DNA of 64,000 nucleotides, from NCBI GenBank assembly GCA_913019965.1, contig CAJVZR010000009.1, positions 1 through 64,000 on the forward strand. Reading direction: 5' to 3'. Within the stretch, counting starts at the first letter, position 1. Each line of letters begins with the position of its first letter. Shown piece after piece: positions 25,354-35,237 of the stretch. The notes beneath the pieces are model-generated. The model searched no databases. It saw nothing but the letters and a program-made list of their open reading frames with translations, and was not told the origin of the DNA. Both the position numbers and the translations under genes were made by a program. This DNA is from an uncultured Oleispira sp. Its GTDB lineage: Bacteria > Pseudomonadota > Gammaproteobacteria > Pseudomonadales > Oceanobacteraceae.

Positions 25354-25378
25354 AGGCTCTATATAATTTATAGAGCCT
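25354..25378. terminator. Bidirectional terminator between ppnN and the membrane protein gene
   Basis: AGGCTCTATA-TAATT-TATAGAGCCT is a perfect 10-bp stem that overlaps the stop codon of the convergent membrane protein gene. T-rich sequence is limited on both sides. Confidence 0.6.
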
Positions 25379-26060
25379 CTACCTCTCTATTTTTGACAAG
25401 ATAAACTTGTCGATACGTTAAGCTCGCGGCAATAAACAGACTGGATATCAACAATACTTGCCATTCAGTAACACTGAATTGAAAGGTATAGCGCAATAAG
25501 GCCAGCAATCCAAAATAGCCTATAATAGACAGCTGTAACCACTGCCCAAATTCAAAAGGCAGTTGGATTATTTTTAATTGCTCAACTCGAATGATATTAG
25601 CCAACCATAAACTCAAACACGCAAATACAAATACCACCAAGCCAACAATCACAAATGAAAACCATACCCAGAATTCAGGCCAAGCAAATACTTGAGCAGA
25701 CTTTGCTGGGCCTGACCAAAGTGCATCCCAACTAACCGCTAAGATCAAAGCCACGTTGACCATAATACTCGGCGCTTCATTCTCTTCGTTTTCAGCCAGT
25801 TCCTGACTAATAAAGTGGGCGATAAAGATAAACGCAATAACTCCGATAACAGGGGTTAAGAGTGGCATTGAATGAATACTAAAATAGGCAATTAAGTACC
25901 CCACCATAGGAAAGAGAGTATGGGTCAGTGTCACCCCTAGCAGCCATAGCATTATAATTCTTTTTCGTGATAATGCCTTTGCCTGAATGAAGGTAACTAG
26001 AGCGACATCAATACCGATACCCAAGCCCATTAATAAGCACGCTAACCCGATATCGATCAT
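25368..26060 (-). CDS. Multi-pass inner membrane protein, unknown function
   Basis: A 230-residue protein with six to seven predicted membrane helices. Two segments look like degenerate repeats: GLACLLMGLGIGIDVALVTFIQAKALSRKR and LILAVSWDALWSGPAKSAQ, each with an intramembrane Asp followed by a small-residue stretch. This recalls MntP/LysE-type transporters, but I cannot assign a family. The ATG at 26060 overlaps the upstream stop (ATGA), so it is translationally coupled to the c-type-cytochrome-like lipoprotein and shares its PhoB-box-like promoter. Confidence 0.68.
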   Translation of the reverse strand: MIDIGLACLLMGLGIGIDVALVTFIQAKALSRKRIIMLWLLGVTLTHTLFPMVGYLIAYFSIHSMPLLTPVIGVIAFIFIAHFISQELAENEENEAPSIMVNVALILAVSWDALWSGPAKSAQVFAWPEFWVWFSFVIVGLVVFVFACLSLWLANIIRVEQLKIIQLPFEFGQWLQLSIIGYFGLLALLRYTFQFSVTEWQVLLISSLFIAASLTYRQVYLVKNREVEAL

Positions 26061-27694
26061 GGCTGACTCCAATCAAGACGGATATCCCAGGCATAGCGGT
26101 GTTCTTCTAATAACGGAAAAGTCGTTGAGTCTACTTGCTGCAATACATTTTTTGCTGGCTTTAAAACTGCATCACGGCCAAAAATGTAGCTTTGTTCTTC
26201 AACGATCAACTTATAGGCTTTATTTAATTTAAGGGCTCTTTCTTTTGACGGAGTAATCAGCGGATAAATCGATTTCAATTTTTCAATACGCTCTTTATTA
26301 ACCGTACCATCGTGATGGAACCAACGTTTTTTCATTTCAGTATTCTGTCTAAATTCATCACCACCACCCACACGTTCAAAATAGTTCAAATATTCTCCAA
26401 CCTGACTTCCTTTGCTGGCGACATCCTGTATTTTTTCCAGATCGATATAGCCCCACCCTGAGCTGCCTTCGACCTTACGCGAGAATGAAAATATTTGATC
26501 AATCGTACTACCTAAGGTTTTATGACAGCCATTACAGTAAGCGAGTTCTTGCTTATTTTGCTGACGCAGCTCACCCTGCTGATTTTCAATATAGCCATTA
26601 ATTACCCAACCAAAGCCGTTATCAATCCCTCGATCGCCAATCAGGGTTGTTTGCGGTAGTTGTCCCAGCGTCTTTTCTTTCGCTTCGATAAAATAGGCAC
26701 TTTTTAACGCCGCCGCTGAATTAAATTTAGCCTTGCGCATATAACGGACTTCTTTCATTCTGGGGGCGTTGTATACCTGCCCTTGAGCATCAATACCTAA
26801 ATAACGCACAGTATGAAGAAATTCTGTACCTTGAGGATAAAGCATATGTTCAATAGCAATGGTATCTGCATCACCGCTATAAAATTTTTGTTCTTCAACC
26901 GATGAGTTTTTATTACGGCTATCTTTAATCGTTTGTTCCAATAGTGCCAAATTTTTTAAATAAATGACTTCTGAATATTGACCATTAATTTCACGAAATA
27001 TTTTAGGTAAACGAATCATGGCATCCCCAGTTGAGCCATTCGTTGGCCAAAAACTACTAGGCAGAGGTTTATAATTATAAGCTACCCAATGAGAGCCATC
27101 TTGGGCAAGACCATTTTCATGAAACGCTTTCTGTGGATAAGCCAGATTAGTAATTGCAGGCAGCTCCCCTTTCCATGATAAATCTTTTTTCAAATTCTCG
27201 ATAAAGGGGCTGTAATTATCTTCAGTTACCCACTGCATAATACTGTGATCATCAATCGCCGCTATGCCTTCAGTTCGATCGATAAAAAGATTTTTCCAGC
27301 TATTTTTCATGCCTTCATCTGAGAATTCATAATTGCCTTGCAAGCTCATATCTTTTACATAATTTGGTCTTAGTGGATCGTCATAACTTTGATGGCAGAC
27401 AAAGCAAGGATTTTTATTTCCTTCGGTTTTTGTATAACACTGTGGCGGGATGACCGACTCAGGATTATATATTTCATCGTGCTCAAGATACGCTAACGCC
27501 GGAATTTCACTACTTTCAGTTAGAGCTGGAGTCTTAGTTGAGGTCTTAGTTGAGGTCTTAGTTGAGACCATTGATGATGTATTAACTGGAGCCATGGTTG
27601 AAGCACTTTCAGAGCAGGCGCTTAAGAAAAAGGACAAGCTAATAAGCATCACTATTATTTTAATGTTTGCTACTGCGGAGTTCATACATTTCAT
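26057..27694 (-). CDS. Lipoprotein with two CxxCH haem-binding motifs, unknown function
   Basis: A 545-residue envelope protein. The lipobox LSAC gives a lipidated Cys27, followed by a Thr/Ser/Lys linker containing three STKT repeats. Covalent haem motifs CFVCH (97-101) and CNGCH (387-391) suggest a dihaem c-type cytochrome, and the intervening 285 residues are not recognised. The ORF track start is upstream of the hydrophobic segment; I use the ATG at 27694, with ATG 27685 as an alternative. It overlaps the following membrane protein gene by four bases and has a PhoB-box-like site 49 bases before its start. An oxidoreductase role is inferred only from the haem motifs. Confidence 0.72.
   Translation of the reverse strand: MKCMNSAVANIKIIVMLISLSFFLSACSESASTMAPVNTSSMVSTKTSTKTSTKTPALTESSEIPALAYLEHDEIYNPESVIPPQCYTKTEGNKNPCFVCHQSYDDPLRPNYVKDMSLQGNYEFSDEGMKNSWKNLFIDRTEGIAAIDDHSIMQWVTEDNYSPFIENLKKDLSWKGELPAITNLAYPQKAFHENGLAQDGSHWVAYNYKPLPSSFWPTNGSTGDAMIRLPKIFREINGQYSEVIYLKNLALLEQTIKDSRNKNSSVEEQKFYSGDADTIAIEHMLYPQGTEFLHTVRYLGIDAQGQVYNAPRMKEVRYMRKAKFNSAAALKSAYFIEAKEKTLGQLPQTTLIGDRGIDNGFGWVINGYIENQQGELRQQNKQELAYCNGCHKTLGSTIDQIFSFSRKVEGSSGWGYIDLEKIQDVASKGSQVGEYLNYFERVGGGDEFRQNTEMKKRWFHHDGTVNKERIEKLKSIYPLITPSKERALKLNKAYKLIVEEQSYIFGRDAVLKPAKNVLQQVDSTTFPLLEEHRYAWDIRLDWSQP
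27531..27566. repeat. 12-bp tandem repeat x3 in the cytochrome-like lipoprotein gene
   Basis: GTCTTAGTTGAG is repeated three times without mismatch, encoding the STKT-type linker repeats after the lipid-anchored cysteine. The frame is preserved at any copy number. Confidence 0.92.
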
Positions 27695-27742
27695 ACTGCT
27701 AGCCAAGATTCTATTTAGTTCTTAACTGTATAAAGCATTTAT

Positions 27743-27760
27743 GTGACAGTTATATATCAG
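27743..27760 (-). promoter_or_regulatory. PhoB box-like site
   Basis: On the minus strand CTGATAT-ATAA-CTGTCAC matches the PhoB consensus CTGTCAT-N4-CTGTCAY at all but two half-site positions, with exact 11-bp spacing. It lies 49 bases before the start of the cytochrome-like lipoprotein gene and is oriented towards it. Confidence 0.7.
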
Positions 27761-27800: not shown

Positions 27801-27840
27801 AAAAAAAGGAAGAAGGTAATCCTTCTTCCTTTTAATTTTC
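27801..27840. terminator. Terminator of the PhoX-like gene
   Basis: AAAAGGAAGAAGG-TAAT-CCTTCTTCCTTTT is a 13-bp perfect stem with A and T runs on both sides, about 40 bases after the stop of the PhoX-like gene on the minus strand. Confidence 0.9.
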
Positions 27841-27873: not shown

Positions 27874-29766
27874 TTAACGTGGATCGTACATCCATAAAGT
27901 ATTGTTTTCTTGGAAGCCATCTTCACCTAATAAAATACGACCATCTTTCATCACAACAACATTGTCGGGCTGAGACAGATTATTAACGTCACAACGCTCT
28001 GCGCCATCAAGAGAGCTGCGATAGGTTGCCCCCATAACAACAGGCTCAATACGTGCAAGATCATAATCATTTTCGATTTTAGCGCGATAAACACCCCCAC
28101 AATCTTTAACTCGGCTAGATAACTGCATATCACCTTCGTCATCAATCATGGTTTTATCAAGGTCGGCAATAGCCAAATACATATACGCAGCGGTCACGAC
28201 TTCGTCTGCGACCTTATCTTCACTAGTAATCGCTTCTTTCACTCGATCTTGATGGATGGATAAACCTTCAAGCTTACGCCATTCTGCAGTCGCACCTAAT
28301 TGACGAGCCGCCTGACGTGATTCTAAAAAGGCTGCACGATCATCCATTGGTTTATCGGCTGTTACTTTTCCGCCACCATAGGCCAAGGTAGGATATTTTG
28401 TTCCAGTAGGACGACCCGCTTGTACCCAAGCAGCCCAAGCTTGAACATCCGCCATCGTCATATAGCTCGACTCACCTTCAACATATTGATCACTGCCAAT
28501 ATTATCAAACTCATTGATCCAACTTTCGATTTGGGCATTATTCCCTGTCGCTAATTCTACCCAGCTAACATCGAAGCCAGTTACTGCAGGATCATTCAAG
28601 CCGGCGTCTTGAACCAGCTTAGCGCCATACAAGGTACCACTGGACAAATCTTCTGCAGTATCGGCAATAAATTTAAATAACACACCGCCGGTATCATCTT
28701 GTGAAGCATAAACCGTTTTTCCATCAGGCATTACGATTGAATTTTCATGCTCATAGCGACCGATGGTGAAGTGCTTAACTGGTACCGGCGCCGCTGAAGC
28801 CGGGTTAGTAATTTCAACGATATAACCATAATCATAAGGGTTACTCGCATTTGCTGATAGCGCCCACATACCGGCTAATAAACCATTATCTGCAATTTCT
28901 GCAGGGTCATTCCAGCTCGCATCCGTAGTCGAATCAACACTGGTATTCACCACCCACTCTTCAGAGGTTAATGGTGTATTCCAAGGTGATACAGAACCGA
29001 AGCAATTAGCCCCTGTGCCATTAACACCAGAGAAATCAACCATCATGGCATCAAGAATACCCCATTCTCCCTGAGGATTTTTTTGCAAATTCATCCGGCT
29101 CATACCACCTGGGTAGAGTTCCCAGTTAGTAAACAAATAACCTTTCCCTTCAGCCGTTGGAATAAAACCATTGAAGTCAGGCATATTATTTTCAAATATT
29201 TTAGTATCGCCAGCAAGGTTATAAATAGTGCCTAGACCATTGGGTAATTGGCCGCCCAGTGTTGAAGCCGTTTGACCCAATACTTTATATTGACCATAAG
29301 CTGATTGAACCGTTTGGCGCTCATAATCACTTTTAGGCACAGGGATATCAATTAATGTCTGTGGAAGTTCATTAAAGTTAATGCCTTCGATAACCCCCAC
29401 GGTACCGGTATCATAGGCTACGCCATTACTATCGGTTTCAACATTACTGCCCGCAGGGTGTTGGGCGTTGAAAAACAAATCTCCTTCTTCCGTTAAGAAG
29501 ATACCCGTCACTTCGGCTCCAGCAGGTACTGTCGCGATACGGGTTAATACACCTGCCCCCGGACCTGTCTCTCCATCAGCACCTGGCAAACCATCAGCAC
29601 CTGGAAGACCATCCATTCCCGGCAGGCCTGGCTCTCCAGGAGCACCGGATGAACCTTGAGTACCATTATCTCCATCTTCAGAATCTGCACCACAAGCTAC
29701 TAACATAGAAGTGGTCATTGCTAGGATCATCGCTTTGTATAATCCGTTTTTTTGCATGAGTTCCAT
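27874..29766 (-). CDS. PhoX-like (DUF839) lipoprotein with collagen-like linker
   Basis: A 630-residue lipoprotein. Lipobox LVAC (Cys25) is followed by an acidic stretch and about ten Gly-X-Y collagen-like triplets (GAPGEPGLPGMDGLPGADG), then a DUF839 beta-propeller-type domain. PhoX-type landmarks are IGRYEHENSIVMPDGKTVYASQDD and LSQPDNVVVMKDGRILLGEDG, which supply Glu/Asp ligands for calcium and iron in characterised PhoX alkaline phosphatases. Known PhoX proteins are Tat-exported; this one is a lipoprotein with no twin-arginine motif, so phosphatase activity is likely but not certain. A six-half-site PhoB-type array upstream strongly supports a role in phosphate acquisition. ATG 29757 is an alternative start. 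Confidence 0.82.
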   Translation of the reverse strand: MELMQKNGLYKAMILAMTTSMLVACGADSEDGDNGTQGSSGAPGEPGLPGMDGLPGADGLPGADGETGPGAGVLTRIATVPAGAEVTGIFLTEEGDLFFNAQHPAGSNVETDSNGVAYDTGTVGVIEGINFNELPQTLIDIPVPKSDYERQTVQSAYGQYKVLGQTASTLGGQLPNGLGTIYNLAGDTKIFENNMPDFNGFIPTAEGKGYLFTNWELYPGGMSRMNLQKNPQGEWGILDAMMVDFSGVNGTGANCFGSVSPWNTPLTSEEWVVNTSVDSTTDASWNDPAEIADNGLLAGMWALSANASNPYDYGYIVEITNPASAAPVPVKHFTIGRYEHENSIVMPDGKTVYASQDDTGGVLFKFIADTAEDLSSGTLYGAKLVQDAGLNDPAVTGFDVSWVELATGNNAQIESWINEFDNIGSDQYVEGESSYMTMADVQAWAAWVQAGRPTGTKYPTLAYGGGKVTADKPMDDRAAFLESRQAARQLGATAEWRKLEGLSIHQDRVKEAITSEDKVADEVVTAAYMYLAIADLDKTMIDDEGDMQLSSRVKDCGGVYRAKIENDYDLARIEPVVMGATYRSSLDGAERCDVNNLSQPDNVVVMKDGRILLGEDGFQENNTLWMYDPR

Positions 29767-29827: not shown

Positions 29828-29889
29828 ATGACAGTTGGAGGAATGTTAGATGACAATTCTGTGGCGATTAAATGACACGAAAGTGACGA
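29828..29889 (-). promoter_or_regulatory. Array of six PhoB half-sites at 11-bp spacing
   Basis: On the minus strand: TCGTCAC, GTGTCAT, TCGCCAC, TTGTCAT, CATTCCT, CTGTCAT, each seven bases and separated by exactly four. Three of the six are six or seven matches to CTGTCAT and the others keep the central GTCA or its remnants. This is the layout of a tandem PhoB binding region, 62 bases before the PhoX-like start codon. Confidence 0.8.
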
Positions 29890-29938: not shown

Positions 29939-30619
29939 TTAATAACGTCGTACAAATACAACAACCCGGCGATTGCCTTGACGCTGTTGTTCAATTGAGG
30001 CATTAGCCTCATTTTCTTTCGGTCGGCTATCGGCATAACCAGCGGCTTTAAGTCGTTCTTTTTCTATCCCTTGCGCTAATAAGTATTTAACCACATTGGT
30101 TGCCCGCACAGAGGATAACTCCCAATTTGAAGGGAACTTCTCCGTATGAATCGGCACATCATCAGTATGACCCTCAACCTCAACCATATGAGTTTTATGA
30201 CTGGTTTCACGAATGACCCGCGTTACTTCTTTCAACGTAGGAATCGCATCCGTTTTAATATCAGCGGATCCTGATTGATAAAGTGCGACGTTAGCAAACT
30301 CGATTTTCACCCCTTTTGCATCCAGAGTCACTGATACTTGATCTTGTAAGCCTTGTTGTTCGATCAAGTCTTCCAAGCCCGATTTAATATCGGTGAACGG
30401 TGTCGGTGGTGCTTCACCCGTCATCATTTCAGACAAACCTTCTTTCAACGCTTCCACCTTGCCTTGATTCAAATCCGATACCGAAAGAATCATCACAAAA
30501 AACGCGAGCAGCAAAGTAATGGCATCAGAGTAGGTAACTAACCACGAACTGGATGAATCATCAAAATTCGGACGACGACGGCGTAAACTTCGATGTTTAT
30601 TTGAGACCGATTCCGTCAT
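29939..30619 (-). CDS. MotB-like stator protein with OmpA domain
   Basis: A 226-residue protein with the MotB plan: a basic N-terminus, one membrane helix SWLVTYSDAITLLLAFFVMILSV, and a periplasmic OmpA-type peptidoglycan-binding domain (MVEVEGHTDDVPIH ... NWELSSVRATNVVKYLL ... GNRRVVVFVRRY). Asp32 in TYSD sits at the position of the ion-carrying aspartate of E. coli MotB. A plug-like segment follows the helix. It overlaps the motA-like gene by one base (TAATG) and is the last gene of the five-gene operon with a FliF-FliG-like fusion. ExbD/TolR homologues lack the OmpA domain, so MotB/PomB kinship is the better reading. Confidence 0.9.
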   Translation of the reverse strand: MTESVSNKHRSLRRRRPNFDDSSSSWLVTYSDAITLLLAFFVMILSVSDLNQGKVEALKEGLSEMMTGEAPPTPFTDIKSGLEDLIEQQGLQDQVSVTLDAKGVKIEFANVALYQSGSADIKTDAIPTLKEVTRVIRETSHKTHMVEVEGHTDDVPIHTEKFPSNWELSSVRATNVVKYLLAQGIEKERLKAAGYADSRPKENEANASIEQQRQGNRRVVVFVRRY

Positions 30620-31422
30620 TAGAGCTCTTCTTCTATTGGCTGATAACGGGCACTCGGTTTAAGATAAGAATTTAATCTATCTTGCATGAAAAGCGCATCG
30701 CGTTTTTCTGCTAATAAGACAAATCCTTCAACGATCATTTGATCACGAAAATATAACGACTCTTGCTTTTCAGTGACCTGATTGGCTGCCGGTTTAAATA
30801 TCAGGTTGGCCAATACCACCCCATATAAAGTTGTAATAAGTGCCAAGGCTAAACCTTTACCCAGCGCTGCCATATCACCGTTCATATTGTCTAGCATAAT
30901 TATCAAACCAATTATTGTGCCCACCATGCCAAAACCTGGCGCATAGACCGCCATGGTATTCAGGACTTTTGATTCAATCGTCATACGCTGCCAAAAAGCA
31001 TCCATGTCATCGGTTAACATGATACGCACTTCATGGTTTTTATAACCACTGCTCAGTAATTCCATGCCATGGCAGATAAAAGGATCTTTGCGTTCTTTGT
31101 CGGTTAACGAAGACTCTAAACCAGCAATACCTTGCTGGCGATAGATCTGCCCCCATTCAACAAAACGTTCGACATGACCATGAAGGTACTTGGAACTTGT
31201 AGGAGCATGAAATAAGGTATCAAACAACGCTTTGACCGCGGTTAAAACATCCAACGTTGTATAGCTGATTAAGGAGGCTGCAAAGGTGCTACCGGCCACA
31301 AGAGCAAAACTGGACAGGCTGATAAACATTAAATAATTATTCGTGCTCGAGACAATGGCATAAATAAATAAACTAATGGCGACCGTAATGCCGACTAGGG
31401 TACTAAAAGAAAATCGATTCAT
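30619..31422 (-). CDS. MotA-like stator channel protein
   Basis: A 267-residue protein with four membrane helices: two near the N-terminus (STLVGITVAISLFIYAIV and LMFISLSSFALVAGSTFAASLI), a cytoplasmic loop of about 100 residues rich in charge (HVERFVEWGQIYRQQ, TDKERKDPFICHGMELLSSGY), then NTMAVYAPGFGMVGTIIGLIIML and LGKGLALALITTLYGVVLANLIF. The Pro in YAPGFGMVGT matches the MotA position that couples ion flow to movement. With the MotB-like protein it would form an ion-conducting stator. AAGGA seven bases before the ATG overlaps the stop region of the upstream FliF-FliG-like gene. Confidence 0.9.
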   Translation of the reverse strand: MNRFSFSTLVGITVAISLFIYAIVSSTNNYLMFISLSSFALVAGSTFAASLISYTTLDVLTAVKALFDTLFHAPTSSKYLHGHVERFVEWGQIYRQQGIAGLESSLTDKERKDPFICHGMELLSSGYKNHEVRIMLTDDMDAFWQRMTIESKVLNTMAVYAPGFGMVGTIIGLIIMLDNMNGDMAALGKGLALALITTLYGVVLANLIFKPAANQVTEKQESLYFRDQMIVEGFVLLAEKRDALFMQDRLNSYLKPSARYQPIEEEL

Positions 31423-31431
31423 ACAATATCC

Positions 31432-33363
31432 TTAACTGGGATTCGCAACTGCGATCAATTCATCCATTGAAAAACGGCCAGCTTTTAATACTTCACGCAT
31501 TTTAGCCACCACTTGATTTCGTGCTTGTTCTGTTTGTTCTTGCGCCGCTTGTCCCTCTTGAATTTTAAGTTCTGAGATAACCGATGAACGTAACTTAGCC
31601 GGTAATCCACTTAGAATATGACGTTTGAATTCGGTGGGGGTATTGCATAACGATAACGCCATGACCATACGATCAACATCTCGTAGTTCATTCGCAATGA
31701 CTCGCTCTGGAGTACGCATAAGATCGGCATAGGTATAATAAACCTGACGCAAGCGATAATAGGTTTCCGGTTTGTCGGCTTTCAAGGTTTTTAATAGTCG
31801 CGTTTCTTCACCACTGCTCATGGTATCCAACATGTTAATTAATACCGATAGTCCATTGGCCGATACGTTTTCGAAACTTGGGACATTTAAAGATTTTTGT
31901 GCAAGTCGATCAGCCACATCTTTAAAGGTCGAGACCGGTAAGCTTTCAAACTCACCTAGCTCGTAGGCGACCGCAGACTGCTCTCGACCTTCTAAACGCT
32001 GCACTAAGCTAGCAGCTCTTTTAGCAGGGACTTGTGATAATACTAACGCTTTTATGCGAGTCTCCTCTTCTTTAATAAGGAAGAGTACTTGCGAGTCATT
32101 TAACTTATCTAAAAAGGCAAAAGGAGCATTGCCGTTATCATCATCACCTAGCGCTTTTAGTAATTCATGGCGCAAGTTGTTCAGGCTTGATAGCTTCTGT
32201 TCGCTATCCAGTGGGTCGCGTTCGATTTGATCAGCAATATTATCAAAATCAGTACTATTAATTTTCGGACATAGACTACGGAATAAGCTTTTTCCCATCA
32301 CATCATAGAGGGCCGCTACATTCTGGCTATTACCACTATTGAGTTGCTCACTGATACGCTGTTGGAAAAGCTGAGGCTGGCCTAAACCTATCGTCACCAG
32401 TTCTTGGCGCATTTCATTGAGCTGACGGCGGCGATCATGATTATCGTCATCATTACTCTCTATGGGTGCTAAATCGACTGCGGCAGGTACCGTGAAATTA
32501 TCAAAGTTTTCATTTCTACGCTGACCTTCTTTCAAACTTTCAGTTAAGCGTTTATTAAATAGATAGAGTGCCAGCAGTAATAACAGCATCATAAAACCAA
32601 AGCACGCTAACATCAGCCAACCTTGATATTGCTGCCAAAAATCGAGTATAGGTTCGTCTTTTTTTACATCTTTGAATTCAGTTCGTACTATTTTTAAAGA
32701 GTCACCGCGTAATTCATCTAGGCGTGCTTTACGAGTAATTAAATTTCGGATGAATTCAATTTGCTCATCTTTTAATGTTTTATCAAGCACGATAGTAATC
32801 GTCAGCTTATTAATCGAATTCCGATAACCTAACGTTTTCTCTTTAATTTTTTCTATTTGCTTCTCAGCTTCTTGGCGTAACTTTTCGGCGTAACCCAAAG
32901 CTTGCTGACGCTCATCTTCTAACTGCTGAACACGTCCTTTTAAAGCATTTACTTCAATACTGTTATCTTCAAAGATCGGTAAATCACTGGTAGGTAGTCC
33001 GGGTAAAGATTCTTCAACTTCAACGGGTTTATTAGTAACCGAAGCTGGTAAAGGCTGAGAAGTAAAAACAGGGCGCTCTGGAATATTCTTATTTCGGCCA
33101 CCAGACTCTTCTTTGACTATGGTACGTGTTTTCTTTAGTTCAGCTTCAACATGAATTATAAAACGGTTATTCCCTAAATAGGCCTGCAAATCACGATTCA
33201 ACCTCGCTTCCATTTCATCTTTGAAACGGACCTCTTCTATCTCATCTTTCTTCGCCGGTACTTCAAAAGTTTTACCGGTTTCAGCATAAGCGCTAATAGA
33301 ACTGATAATCACACTGGTTAATAAGCACAGCTGTATCATCATTTTTGCAATCATATTCATCAT
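31432..33363 (-). CDS. FliF-like ring domain fused to FliG-like switch domain
   Basis: A 643-residue single protein. After a signal sequence (1-27), residues 45-85 (EMEARLNRDLQAYLGNNRFIIHVEAEL) and 183-232 (NKLTITIVLDK ... RKARLDELRGDSLKIVRTEF) match the two halves of the FliF ring-building domain next to its second membrane helix. A coiled-coil linker (140-180) lies between them. Then come FWQQ (242-245) and a helix at 248-270, as in FliF. Residues 315-640 look like FliG: middle-domain helices QVLFLIKEEETRIKALVLSQVPAKRAASLVQRL and a C-terminal domain LRDVDRMVMALSLCNTPTEFKRHILSGLPAKLRSSVISELK. The FliF RBM1/RBM2 parts are missing, and the charged FliG residues that face MotA are only partly kept. 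It lies directly upstream of motA/motB homologues. Confidence 0.8.
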   Translation of the reverse strand: MMNMIAKMMIQLCLLTSVIISSISAYAETGKTFEVPAKKDEIEEVRFKDEMEARLNRDLQAYLGNNRFIIHVEAELKKTRTIVKEESGGRNKNIPERPVFTSQPLPASVTNKPVEVEESLPGLPTSDLPIFEDNSIEVNALKGRVQQLEDERQQALGYAEKLRQEAEKQIEKIKEKTLGYRNSINKLTITIVLDKTLKDEQIEFIRNLITRKARLDELRGDSLKIVRTEFKDVKKDEPILDFWQQYQGWLMLACFGFMMLLLLLALYLFNKRLTESLKEGQRRNENFDNFTVPAAVDLAPIESNDDDNHDRRRQLNEMRQELVTIGLGQPQLFQQRISEQLNSGNSQNVAALYDVMGKSLFRSLCPKINSTDFDNIADQIERDPLDSEQKLSSLNNLRHELLKALGDDDNGNAPFAFLDKLNDSQVLFLIKEEETRIKALVLSQVPAKRAASLVQRLEGREQSAVAYELGEFESLPVSTFKDVADRLAQKSLNVPSFENVSANGLSVLINMLDTMSSGEETRLLKTLKADKPETYYRLRQVYYTYADLMRTPERVIANELRDVDRMVMALSLCNTPTEFKRHILSGLPAKLRSSVISELKIQEGQAAQEQTEQARNQVVAKMREVLKAGRFSMDELIAVANPS

Positions 33364-33371
33364 CCCTGCCC

Positions 33372-34094
33372 CTACTTCAAGCGTGCCAAACTGGTTTTAA
33401 CTTGTTCCATACTTGGATCAATATTAAGCGCTTGCTGCCAGCTGGATTTTGCTTCCGCACTGAGCCCCATTTTGTAATAAATACTGCCTTTCAATGCATG
33501 CGCTTGAGCTGAATCTGGCACTAGCTCTAACGCTTTATTGGTTTCATCTAATGATTGCCAATATTGTTTTTTATAGAATAAGGACTGGGCACTGAAGATA
33601 TGCTTAGTCGACGCCTGAAAATCTTGAATTTTCTTTTGCTCGATGAGTTCACTGCGCTCATCGAGTTCTTCATGATGCAGCTCAGCTTTTTCATCATCAA
33701 GGCTCGCAAGTACTTGCTTATTTTTTTCAGCAATTTCTTCTGCGCTTTTTTGTAGCGACCCTTGCATCGAGTCGGCCACAGATCCAGGGGCTGCTGGCAA
33801 CTTCATGCTGAAGCTAACATCACTATCCCCAGCATCTAGAGTCATTAATACATCAAACCCAGGGCCATAACGATGGATATGCATTAAGCCGTGATTCTTT
33901 TTTGCTAGGTCCGCGACTTGCTTTCGCTTTTCTATCGTCTCTAAGGAAATTTCTGCCGTCGCCTCAGTACTTTCTTCACCAATACCAATAAGTTCTGGCT
34001 GATCACCGCCGTACTGAGTTAACGTTCGATTGGTTCTTTCGATCGTACAAGCACTCAATGTTAGGATAAATACTGCAATAATTAACTGTTTCAT
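33372..34094 (-). CDS. TPR lipoprotein of the Mot-like operon
   Basis: A 240-residue lipoprotein: lipobox LSAC (Cys16), then a beta-rich region (HIHRYGPGFDVLMTLDAGDSDVSFSMKLP), a charged helical stretch (residues 105-155) and two to three C-terminal TPR motifs (AQSLFYKKQYWQSLDETNKALELVPDSAQAHALKGSIYYKMGLSAEAKSSWQQALNIDPS). I use the ATG at 34094, with AAGGA at good spacing, rather than the TTG two codons earlier. It lies nine bases after the outer-membrane protein gene and eight before the FliF-FliG-like gene. Its job is probably scaffolding on the periplasmic side, comparable to PilF- or FlgP-like lipoproteins in role only. Confidence 0.78.
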   Translation of the reverse strand: MKQLIIAVFILTLSACTIERTNRTLTQYGGDQPELIGIGEESTEATAEISLETIEKRKQVADLAKKNHGLMHIHRYGPGFDVLMTLDAGDSDVSFSMKLPAAPGSVADSMQGSLQKSAEEIAEKNKQVLASLDDEKAELHHEELDERSELIEQKKIQDFQASTKHIFSAQSLFYKKQYWQSLDETNKALELVPDSAQAHALKGSIYYKMGLSAEAKSSWQQALNIDPSMEQVKTSLARLK

Positions 34095-34103
34095 AATCAA
34101 TCC

Positions 34104-35165
34104 TTAGAAGCGCACGCCCAGAGTTAAATCATAACTTGCACCACCAAACGTTCCTGTTTCTTCAAACGCGGTATCTTTCTTCCACTTCACGTCAGCTTCC
34201 TGCATATACACAACACCGAAGTCCATAAAGCCATCTTTAAAGAAGGGGAACTCAAAGCCAAAACGAAAGATCAAACTATTAGCATTATTAAAGAAAGACT
34301 GCCCGATACCTAAATAGACGTTACTATCGATCACATCATCCAGCGCAGGGATATCTGCGATGATACGCCCTTCCAAGTTATAACCACTGAGGTCAAACAA
34401 CTCACCGGATGAGTAATTTGTGAAGTATTCAAAACCTAAAGTATATTCAATGTCTTCGTTTAACTCGGTACTTTCACGACGACGAATACCAAATACCGTG
34501 GCGCCATTTAGCTCGGCATCACCACCGCCAGTCGTGCTCTTACGTTCGCCATTTATTCCCCAAGCCCCTACGATAAGTTCATATTGAACCTTATCAAAAT
34601 CTTCGGCTTCAGCTTCTTTGGTCGTTTTCTTGGAATATTCCTTTAGCCATAAGAGTTCATTATTTTTTCCATCTACAAGGCGTAAGTTAATGGTGAATTT
34701 ATTTTCATGAACAGACGCGCTCCAAAACATAAAAGCATCCGCACGCACTCTTTTTGAAAGTGCACGAAGTTCTTGGTTATTTTCAGCGGCTTGAGAAATT
34801 TTTAATTCATCGGCGGCCATTACAACTTTTGTCGTACGACATTCAATACACTGAATGACATCAAAACGGCCGTTAGCAATTAAACGACGCATCAACTTGT
34901 TTTCTACCATCTGATGAACTTGCTTAGGAATTAAGCGGTGTAGACGATCGCCATTATGATACAAAGCGATTCGTTGAATACTCTGATCGAGATCCATTAA
35001 TTCTTCTAAAACCAAGGCTTTATCGTCATCTAATAATTGACCAAAACCGGTATAAAGTGTCGGCGGGGGTTCTGCAACATAAGGCAGAGCAGGTTCTTCC
35101 GCTTGAGTAAAATTAAGCGACAATAATAAACCAATACATAGTATTTTGAGACTTTGAACAACCAT
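34104..35165 (-). CDS. Outer-membrane protein with FlgO/CsgG-like domain and C-terminal barrel
   Basis: A 353-residue exported protein. A signal peptide (1-22) is followed by a domain at about 60-178 (QSIQRIALYHNGDRLHRLIPKQVHQMVENKLMRRLIANGRFDVIQ ... ADAFMFWSASVHENKFTINLRLVDGKNNELLWLKEYS). Its pattern recalls the FlgO/FlgT and CsgG-type periplasmic domains. The remaining 170 residues are alternating beta strands ending in LTLGVRF, a terminal Phe as in outer-membrane barrels. The ATG at 35165 has AAGGA six bases before it. It is the first gene of the operon and would supply the outer-membrane part of the apparatus. Confidence 0.75.
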   Translation of the reverse strand: MVVQSLKILCIGLLLSLNFTQAEEPALPYVAEPPPTLYTGFGQLLDDDKALVLEELMDLDQSIQRIALYHNGDRLHRLIPKQVHQMVENKLMRRLIANGRFDVIQCIECRTTKVVMAADELKISQAAENNQELRALSKRVRADAFMFWSASVHENKFTINLRLVDGKNNELLWLKEYSKKTTKEAEAEDFDKVQYELIVGAWGINGERKSTTGGGDAELNGATVFGIRRRESTELNEDIEYTLGFEYFTNYSSGELFDLSGYNLEGRIIADIPALDDVIDSNVYLGIGQSFFNNANSLIFRFGFEFPFFKDGFMDFGVVYMQEADVKWKKDTAFEETGTFGGASYDLTLGVRF

Positions 35166-35237
35166 CAACATTCCTTAACCCTGATGTCTTTTTCCAGATT
35201 CCTGATGTCAGCATAGTTCAGATATTCAGGTTTAATG

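Follow-up and report, generated by a model that had tools for sequence, protein, structure and literature searches.

A probable phosphate-starvation module with a PhoB-type half-site array and a circularly permuted PhoX-family lipoprotein in an uncultured Oleispira sp.

Genes and features of the locus

The analysis covered a window of 64,000 nucleotides, i.e., the whole stretch of DNA at hand. Within it, the minus-strand gene at 27874..29766 encodes a 630-aa lipoprotein of the DUF839/PhoX family, composed of a signal peptide, a linker, and a propeller domain of permuted order. Six PhoB-type half-sites in an 11-bp register lie upstream at 29828..29889, likewise on the minus strand. As both genes flanking this array are encoded on the minus strand, the DUF839 gene is the first gene downstream of it. 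It is followed by a partner gene (26057..27706, minus strand) for a lipoprotein of 549 aa, which carries two CxxCH motifs (residues 101-105 and 391-395) and possibly starts at the internal ATG at 27694. The next gene on the minus strand (25368..26072) encodes an MntP-like membrane protein and was regarded as a possible third member; it follows the partner in 17 of approximately 80 named loci.

Between the DUF839 gene and its partner, a terminator-like hairpin of 13 pairs was found at 27804..27833, with T-rich sequence following on both strands. A probable two-unit Pho box, CTGATATataaCTGTCAC, precedes the partner gene (27743..27760, minus strand) and outscores every other two-unit box on this strand in the window. 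Ten nucleotides after it, the −10-like hexamer TATACA was read from the sequence (27727..27732, minus strand). The same arrangement, a hairpin between the genes and a similar partner Pho box with a 10-nt spacing, recurs at one related locus (L002). The idea that the partner carries its own Pho box in all relatives was rejected, since no locus other than the window and L002 shows a convincing box. Most of the gaps between the two genes elsewhere are short enough for co-transcription.

On the other side of the array, an operon-like run of minus-strand genes spans 29939-35171 and encodes a MotB-like protein, a MotA/ExbB protein, a FliF-FliG fusion, a TPR lipoprotein, and a 355-aa protein of unknown family. 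The fusion protein (643 aa) joins the C-terminal domain of FliF to the middle and C-terminal domains of FliG. In 11 related loci, homologues of MotA and MotB are encoded close to the DUF839 gene, and the run may constitute a non-flagellar motor system.

The permuted PhoX-family protein and its partner

The DUF839 protein matches PF05787 with 101.9 bits against a curated Pfam threshold of 24. Among solved structures, PhoX of P. fluorescens was the only sequence match, repeat matches of the collagen-like stretch aside. A first structure model from 8 sequences (pLDDT 57.7) was used only for an initial search, and the model from 66 sequences reached a mean pLDDT of 93.8. Its best fold matches in the PDB were the PhoX entries 4A9V (E = 1.3e-14) and 3ZWU (9.1e-14), with a TM-score of approximately 0.5 and an identity of 14-17% over the fold alignment. 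A modest TM-score would be expected if this order-dependent alignment is unable to place a segment that has moved along the chain. The chain itself carries a signal peptide with a lipobox (LVAC, Cys25), followed by a collagen-like linker at residues ~33-70 and the permuted PhoX propeller at residues 72-630. A lipobox is present in 91 of 92 family members, and a twin arginine before the cysteine, searched for with a simple pattern, in only two. By these patterns, the protein is predicted to be a Sec-type lipoprotein and not a Tat-exported standard PhoX.

With regards to the order of the chain, N-terminal residues 68-107 match PhoX chain positions 511-551 close to the PhoX C-terminus, and the relocated segment, corresponding to positions ~511-551, was assigned to residues 72-109 (29440..29553, minus strand) by sequence comparison. 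The middle of the family profile aligns to residues 243-623, and a Pfam search with the N-terminal piece alone gave no match. A profile of residues 72-130, built from the 92 family members, matched the C-terminus in 12 of 12 standard-order DUF839 proteins, and the remainder of the N-terminal region matched upstream of the core in these proteins. The window protein ends at the very point where standard-order proteins run on into the relocated segment. A duplicated blade was considered for the N-terminal segment and rejected on this ground: a duplication would keep both copies, whereas here the segment is lost at one end and gained at the other, indicating a circular permutation. As far as such alignments allow, the protein is a circularly permuted PhoX with the last PhoX segment at its N-terminus; it departs from the standard PhoX chain order and represents a variant of the PF05787 family. 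Our literature search found no paper on a permuted PhoX or on the pairing of a DUF839 gene with a two-CxxCH gene, which does not prove that none exists.

Of 80 named loci, 78 have the partner gene directly beside the DUF839 gene, and contig ends truncate the two others (L137 and L144). Both CxxCH motifs were present in 78 of 80 partner proteins. The partner occurs in each of the 31 genomes that have a strong DUF839 match versus 2 of 25 genomes without such a match (Fisher p = 9e-14, uncorrected for relatedness). The partner reached no Pfam family and no solved structure, with a cytochrome P460 match below threshold as the only hit. It is probably an exported lipoprotein resembling c-type cytochromes, with putative heme binding. 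The initial annotation had missed the Sec-type export of the DUF839 protein, its permutation, and this partner alike. Standard-order and giant DUF839 genes are adjoined by the partner gene as well. In one relative (G019, locus L164, 2182-9823), the two-CxxCH gene lies 13 nt upstream of the gene for a giant DUF839 protein of 1954 aa, which carries DUF5017 and PhoX domains in its C-terminal part.

The alignment places C179, E273, D292, R385, and E387 of PhoX at C255, E341, D357, K498, and E500, with the assignments of K498 and E500 made via standard-order proteins in a weak stretch of the alignment. All five residues are invariant in the 92 family members. We take Cys179 to be the thiolate ligand of the PhoX iron, and Glu273 and Glu387 to have roles in the PhoX active site. 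For PhoX, a thiolate is described among the iron ligands (PMC4223295), and the active site is stated to include Asp292 and Arg385 (PMC11098088). The broken order of the PhoX residues, the lack of the Tat export through which the Fe/Ca centre could be loaded, and the lysine in place of Arg385 count against a PhoX-type enzyme; as to the lysine, however, the active phosphatase Psip1 also has a lysine for Arg385 (PMC11098088).

Homologues of the same permuted order exist in haloarchaea. One of them, a PhoX that is 37% identical, is encoded in Haladaptatus halobius (L163, 5950-7743), where it adjoins PhoD, with PhoU and three EEP-family genes nearby. This neighborhood supports the phosphatase reading. 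A two-CxxCH partner was not found nearby at this haloarchaeal locus, which suggests that the fold itself does not require the partner.

These observations bear on an alternative in which the PhoB promoter is real, but the protein is a PhoX-like propeller without phosphatase function, which serves another task of phosphate starvation together with the two-heme protein, such as binding or freeing phosphate from ferric phosphate by redox chemistry. That a two-CxxCH lipoprotein is almost always encoded next to it would fit such a role, all the more as no described PhoX is known to require a partner of this kind, and the identity to solved PhoX is low. However, the invariant active-site counterparts and a homologue that adjoins PhoD without such a partner argue against it, and we consider it unlikely. 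The phosphatase role proposed by the initial annotation is the preferred reading; it is supported by the PhoX homology, the invariant active-site counterparts, and the fold match of the predicted structure.

The half-site array, its conservation, and its regulator

Read on the minus strand from 29889 to 29828, the array is TCGTCAC tttc GTGTCAT ttaa TCGCCAC agaa TTGTCAT ctaa CATTCCT ccaa CTGTCAT. Three units are strong when compared to CTGTCAT: unit 2 (GTGTCAT, 29878-29872) and unit 4 (TTGTCAT, 29856-29850) match at 6 of 7 positions, and unit 6 (CTGTCAT, 29834-29828) matches at 7 of 7. Units 1, 3, and 5 are weak, so that weak and strong units alternate, an arrangement that would suit PhoB dimers with one strong and one weak half-site each. 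From the last unit, a −10-like hexamer, TAGCCT, was read by eye after a spacer of exactly 10 nt (29817-29812, minus strand).

Arrays with the same spacing were found upstream of many orthologues from Alteromonas, Pseudoalteromonas, Colwellia, Thalassolituus, and relatives, and, judged from these upstream sequences, the array is conserved across dozens of marine bacteria. The 250 bp upstream of the orthologue in 79 named relatives were compared with 729 other upstream regions from the same loci: a four-unit score of at least 22 was reached by 38% of the former versus 0% of the latter, with the limit that the relatives are not independent and p-values therefore overstate the case. In several orthologues from Pseudoalteromonas, Gilvimarinus, and Marinobacter, the array is weak or absent by the half-site score. 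A total of 52 distinct promoters were aligned on the last half-site as chosen by a script, which picked an earlier unit in a few rows, the window included. In this alignment, an A at +12 (85%) and a T at +16 (88%) stand out, corresponding to a TAnnnT-type hexamer after the 10-nt spacer.

Within the same genome, two further genes, one phoA-like and encoding a lipoprotein, the other pstS-like, share the layout of the array and its 10-nt spacing to the −10 element. Two genes exceed the cut-off of the PhoB model. One is a PhoB-family gene (contig C15) followed by a PhoR-type histidine kinase gene, which together form a phoB-phoR pair. The other (L061, 1486-2184; G000, contig C67) adjoins, by eye, a ubiA-like gene and has no adjacent kinase. 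The conservation of the array and of its spacing to the −10 element in orthologues, the shared layout of the phoA-like and pstS-like genes, and the phoB-phoR pair support PhoB control, which we consider very likely for the DUF839 gene. This is in line with its earlier designation as a phosphate-starvation gene. Half-sites of OmpR-family regulators can resemble each other, and the genome encodes many regulators of the OmpR type, including the two above the PhoB cut-off. Another member of this family with an 11-bp spacing might bind the array, and the gene would then answer a different signal. Since the half-site is of the E. coli PhoB type and occurs in the same layout at the phoA-like and pstS-like genes, this reading appears very improbable.

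The statistical weight of the array was determined with a simple half-site score for phased 11-bp runs on both strands, using dinucleotide shuffles of the whole window as the null. The six-unit run is the top of the window, and none of 60 shuffles reached it; runs of 3, 4, 5, and 6 units each exceeded the both-strand maximum in 60 of 60 shuffles. In contrast, a two-unit box alone shows no excess over chance at the array, as 57 of 60 whole-window shuffles reached it. Shuffling the 173-nt intergenic region gave p ~2e-4, the floor of this test, for runs of 3 to 6 units. The initial annotation had described six minus-strand half-sites with four-base spacers in an unbroken register, three of them nearly perfect, and had judged them beyond chance. 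Reading the sequence confirmed the pattern, and the shuffles bear out the judgment for three to six units, but not for the two-unit box. It had also proposed a scan with a PhoB weight matrix. With an independent matrix from 34 E. coli PhoB ChIP sites printed in PMC3465305, the array was again the best phased run in the window. A genome-wide scan with the half-site pattern (up to 2 mismatches) gave 534 matches versus 385 for the reversed control, indicating that this pattern is too loose. A chance origin of the six-fold array is hardly credible: half of its units are weak, and 64 kb of sequence should contain a two-unit box this strong by chance, but the longer runs exceed every whole-window shuffle, and relatives carry arrays at the same position.

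The proposed module in comparison with known systems

Taken together, the locus probably represents a phosphate-starvation module that combines a surface-anchored phosphatase of a permuted PhoX type with a partner of the c-type cytochrome kind. What the computation shows is the array and its recurrence in relatives, the permuted chain, the invariant residues, and the pairing of the two genes, and from these we infer PhoB binding, induction, catalysis, metal content, and a role for the partner. Under phosphate scarcity, phosphorylated PhoB would bind the six half-sites as up to three tandem dimers and thereby bring RNA polymerase to the −10 element that lies 10 nt beyond them. The induced gene would yield a surface-anchored phosphatase, a PhoX beta-propeller with its last segment placed just after the lipid anchor and the collagen-like linker. 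This enzyme probably uses the Fe/Ca centre of PhoX to hydrolyse phosphate esters. The two-heme lipoprotein encoded next to it, which is probably co-regulated, would work together with it, e.g., by oxidising or loading its iron.

Standard PhoX is exported by Tat, which has been proposed to permit iron insertion in the cytoplasm (PMC4223295). Given the lipoboxes and the near-complete lack of twin-arginine leaders, the iron of the DUF839 family, if any, would be acquired outside the cytoplasm. As the permuted PhoX lacks the Tat signal of standard PhoX, we propose, as a guess, that the partner acts as a maturation or redox helper. A strict dependence of the Sec-exported, permuted PhoX on a c-type cytochrome lipoprotein of its own, be it for iron oxidation or loading outside the cytoplasm or for the release of phosphate from ferric phosphate, is a tentative idea and less likely than not. 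PhoX is a major marine phosphatase, and its need for iron ties the phosphorus and iron cycles together; the permuted form may obtain its iron otherwise than Tat-exported PhoX. Furthermore, a widespread surface-anchored PhoX of permuted order would probably evade the usual phoX primers, as their targets GTYLTCE and ATTMDR differ here.

An orthologue from Pseudoalteromonas xiamenensis (WP_308363195.1, 61% identity over 99% of the query) is listed in RefSeq as 'alkaline phosphatase PhoX'. Its gene is followed by the partner gene, annotated as a hypothetical protein, and the PhoX entry is silent on both the permuted order and the partner. With P. fluorescens PhoX (3ZWU, 4A9V; PF05787), the window protein shares the domain family, the best-matching propeller fold, and counterparts of C179, E273, D292, and E387. 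It differs in the position of the last segment, in the lysine for Arg385, and in its cytochrome-type partner gene, and it is a Sec lipoprotein with a collagen-like linker, whereas P. fluorescens PhoX is a Tat substrate. On the side of the promoter, the spacing of 10 nt between half-site and −10 element is that of E. coli phoA. The PhoB promoters of E. coli phoA and pstS, as far as the sites printed in PMC3465305 are concerned, likewise carry direct repeats of the CTGTCAT type at 11-bp intervals ahead of a −10 element, and the window array differs by its six units of alternating strength. Finally, Psip1 of marine picocyanobacteria shares PhoX-like metal-site residues in a propeller and the lysine for Arg385 (PMC11098088). 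However, by its description there, Psip1 is unrelated to PhoX in sequence and lacks a counterpart of Asp292, whereas the window protein belongs to PF05787 and keeps this residue.
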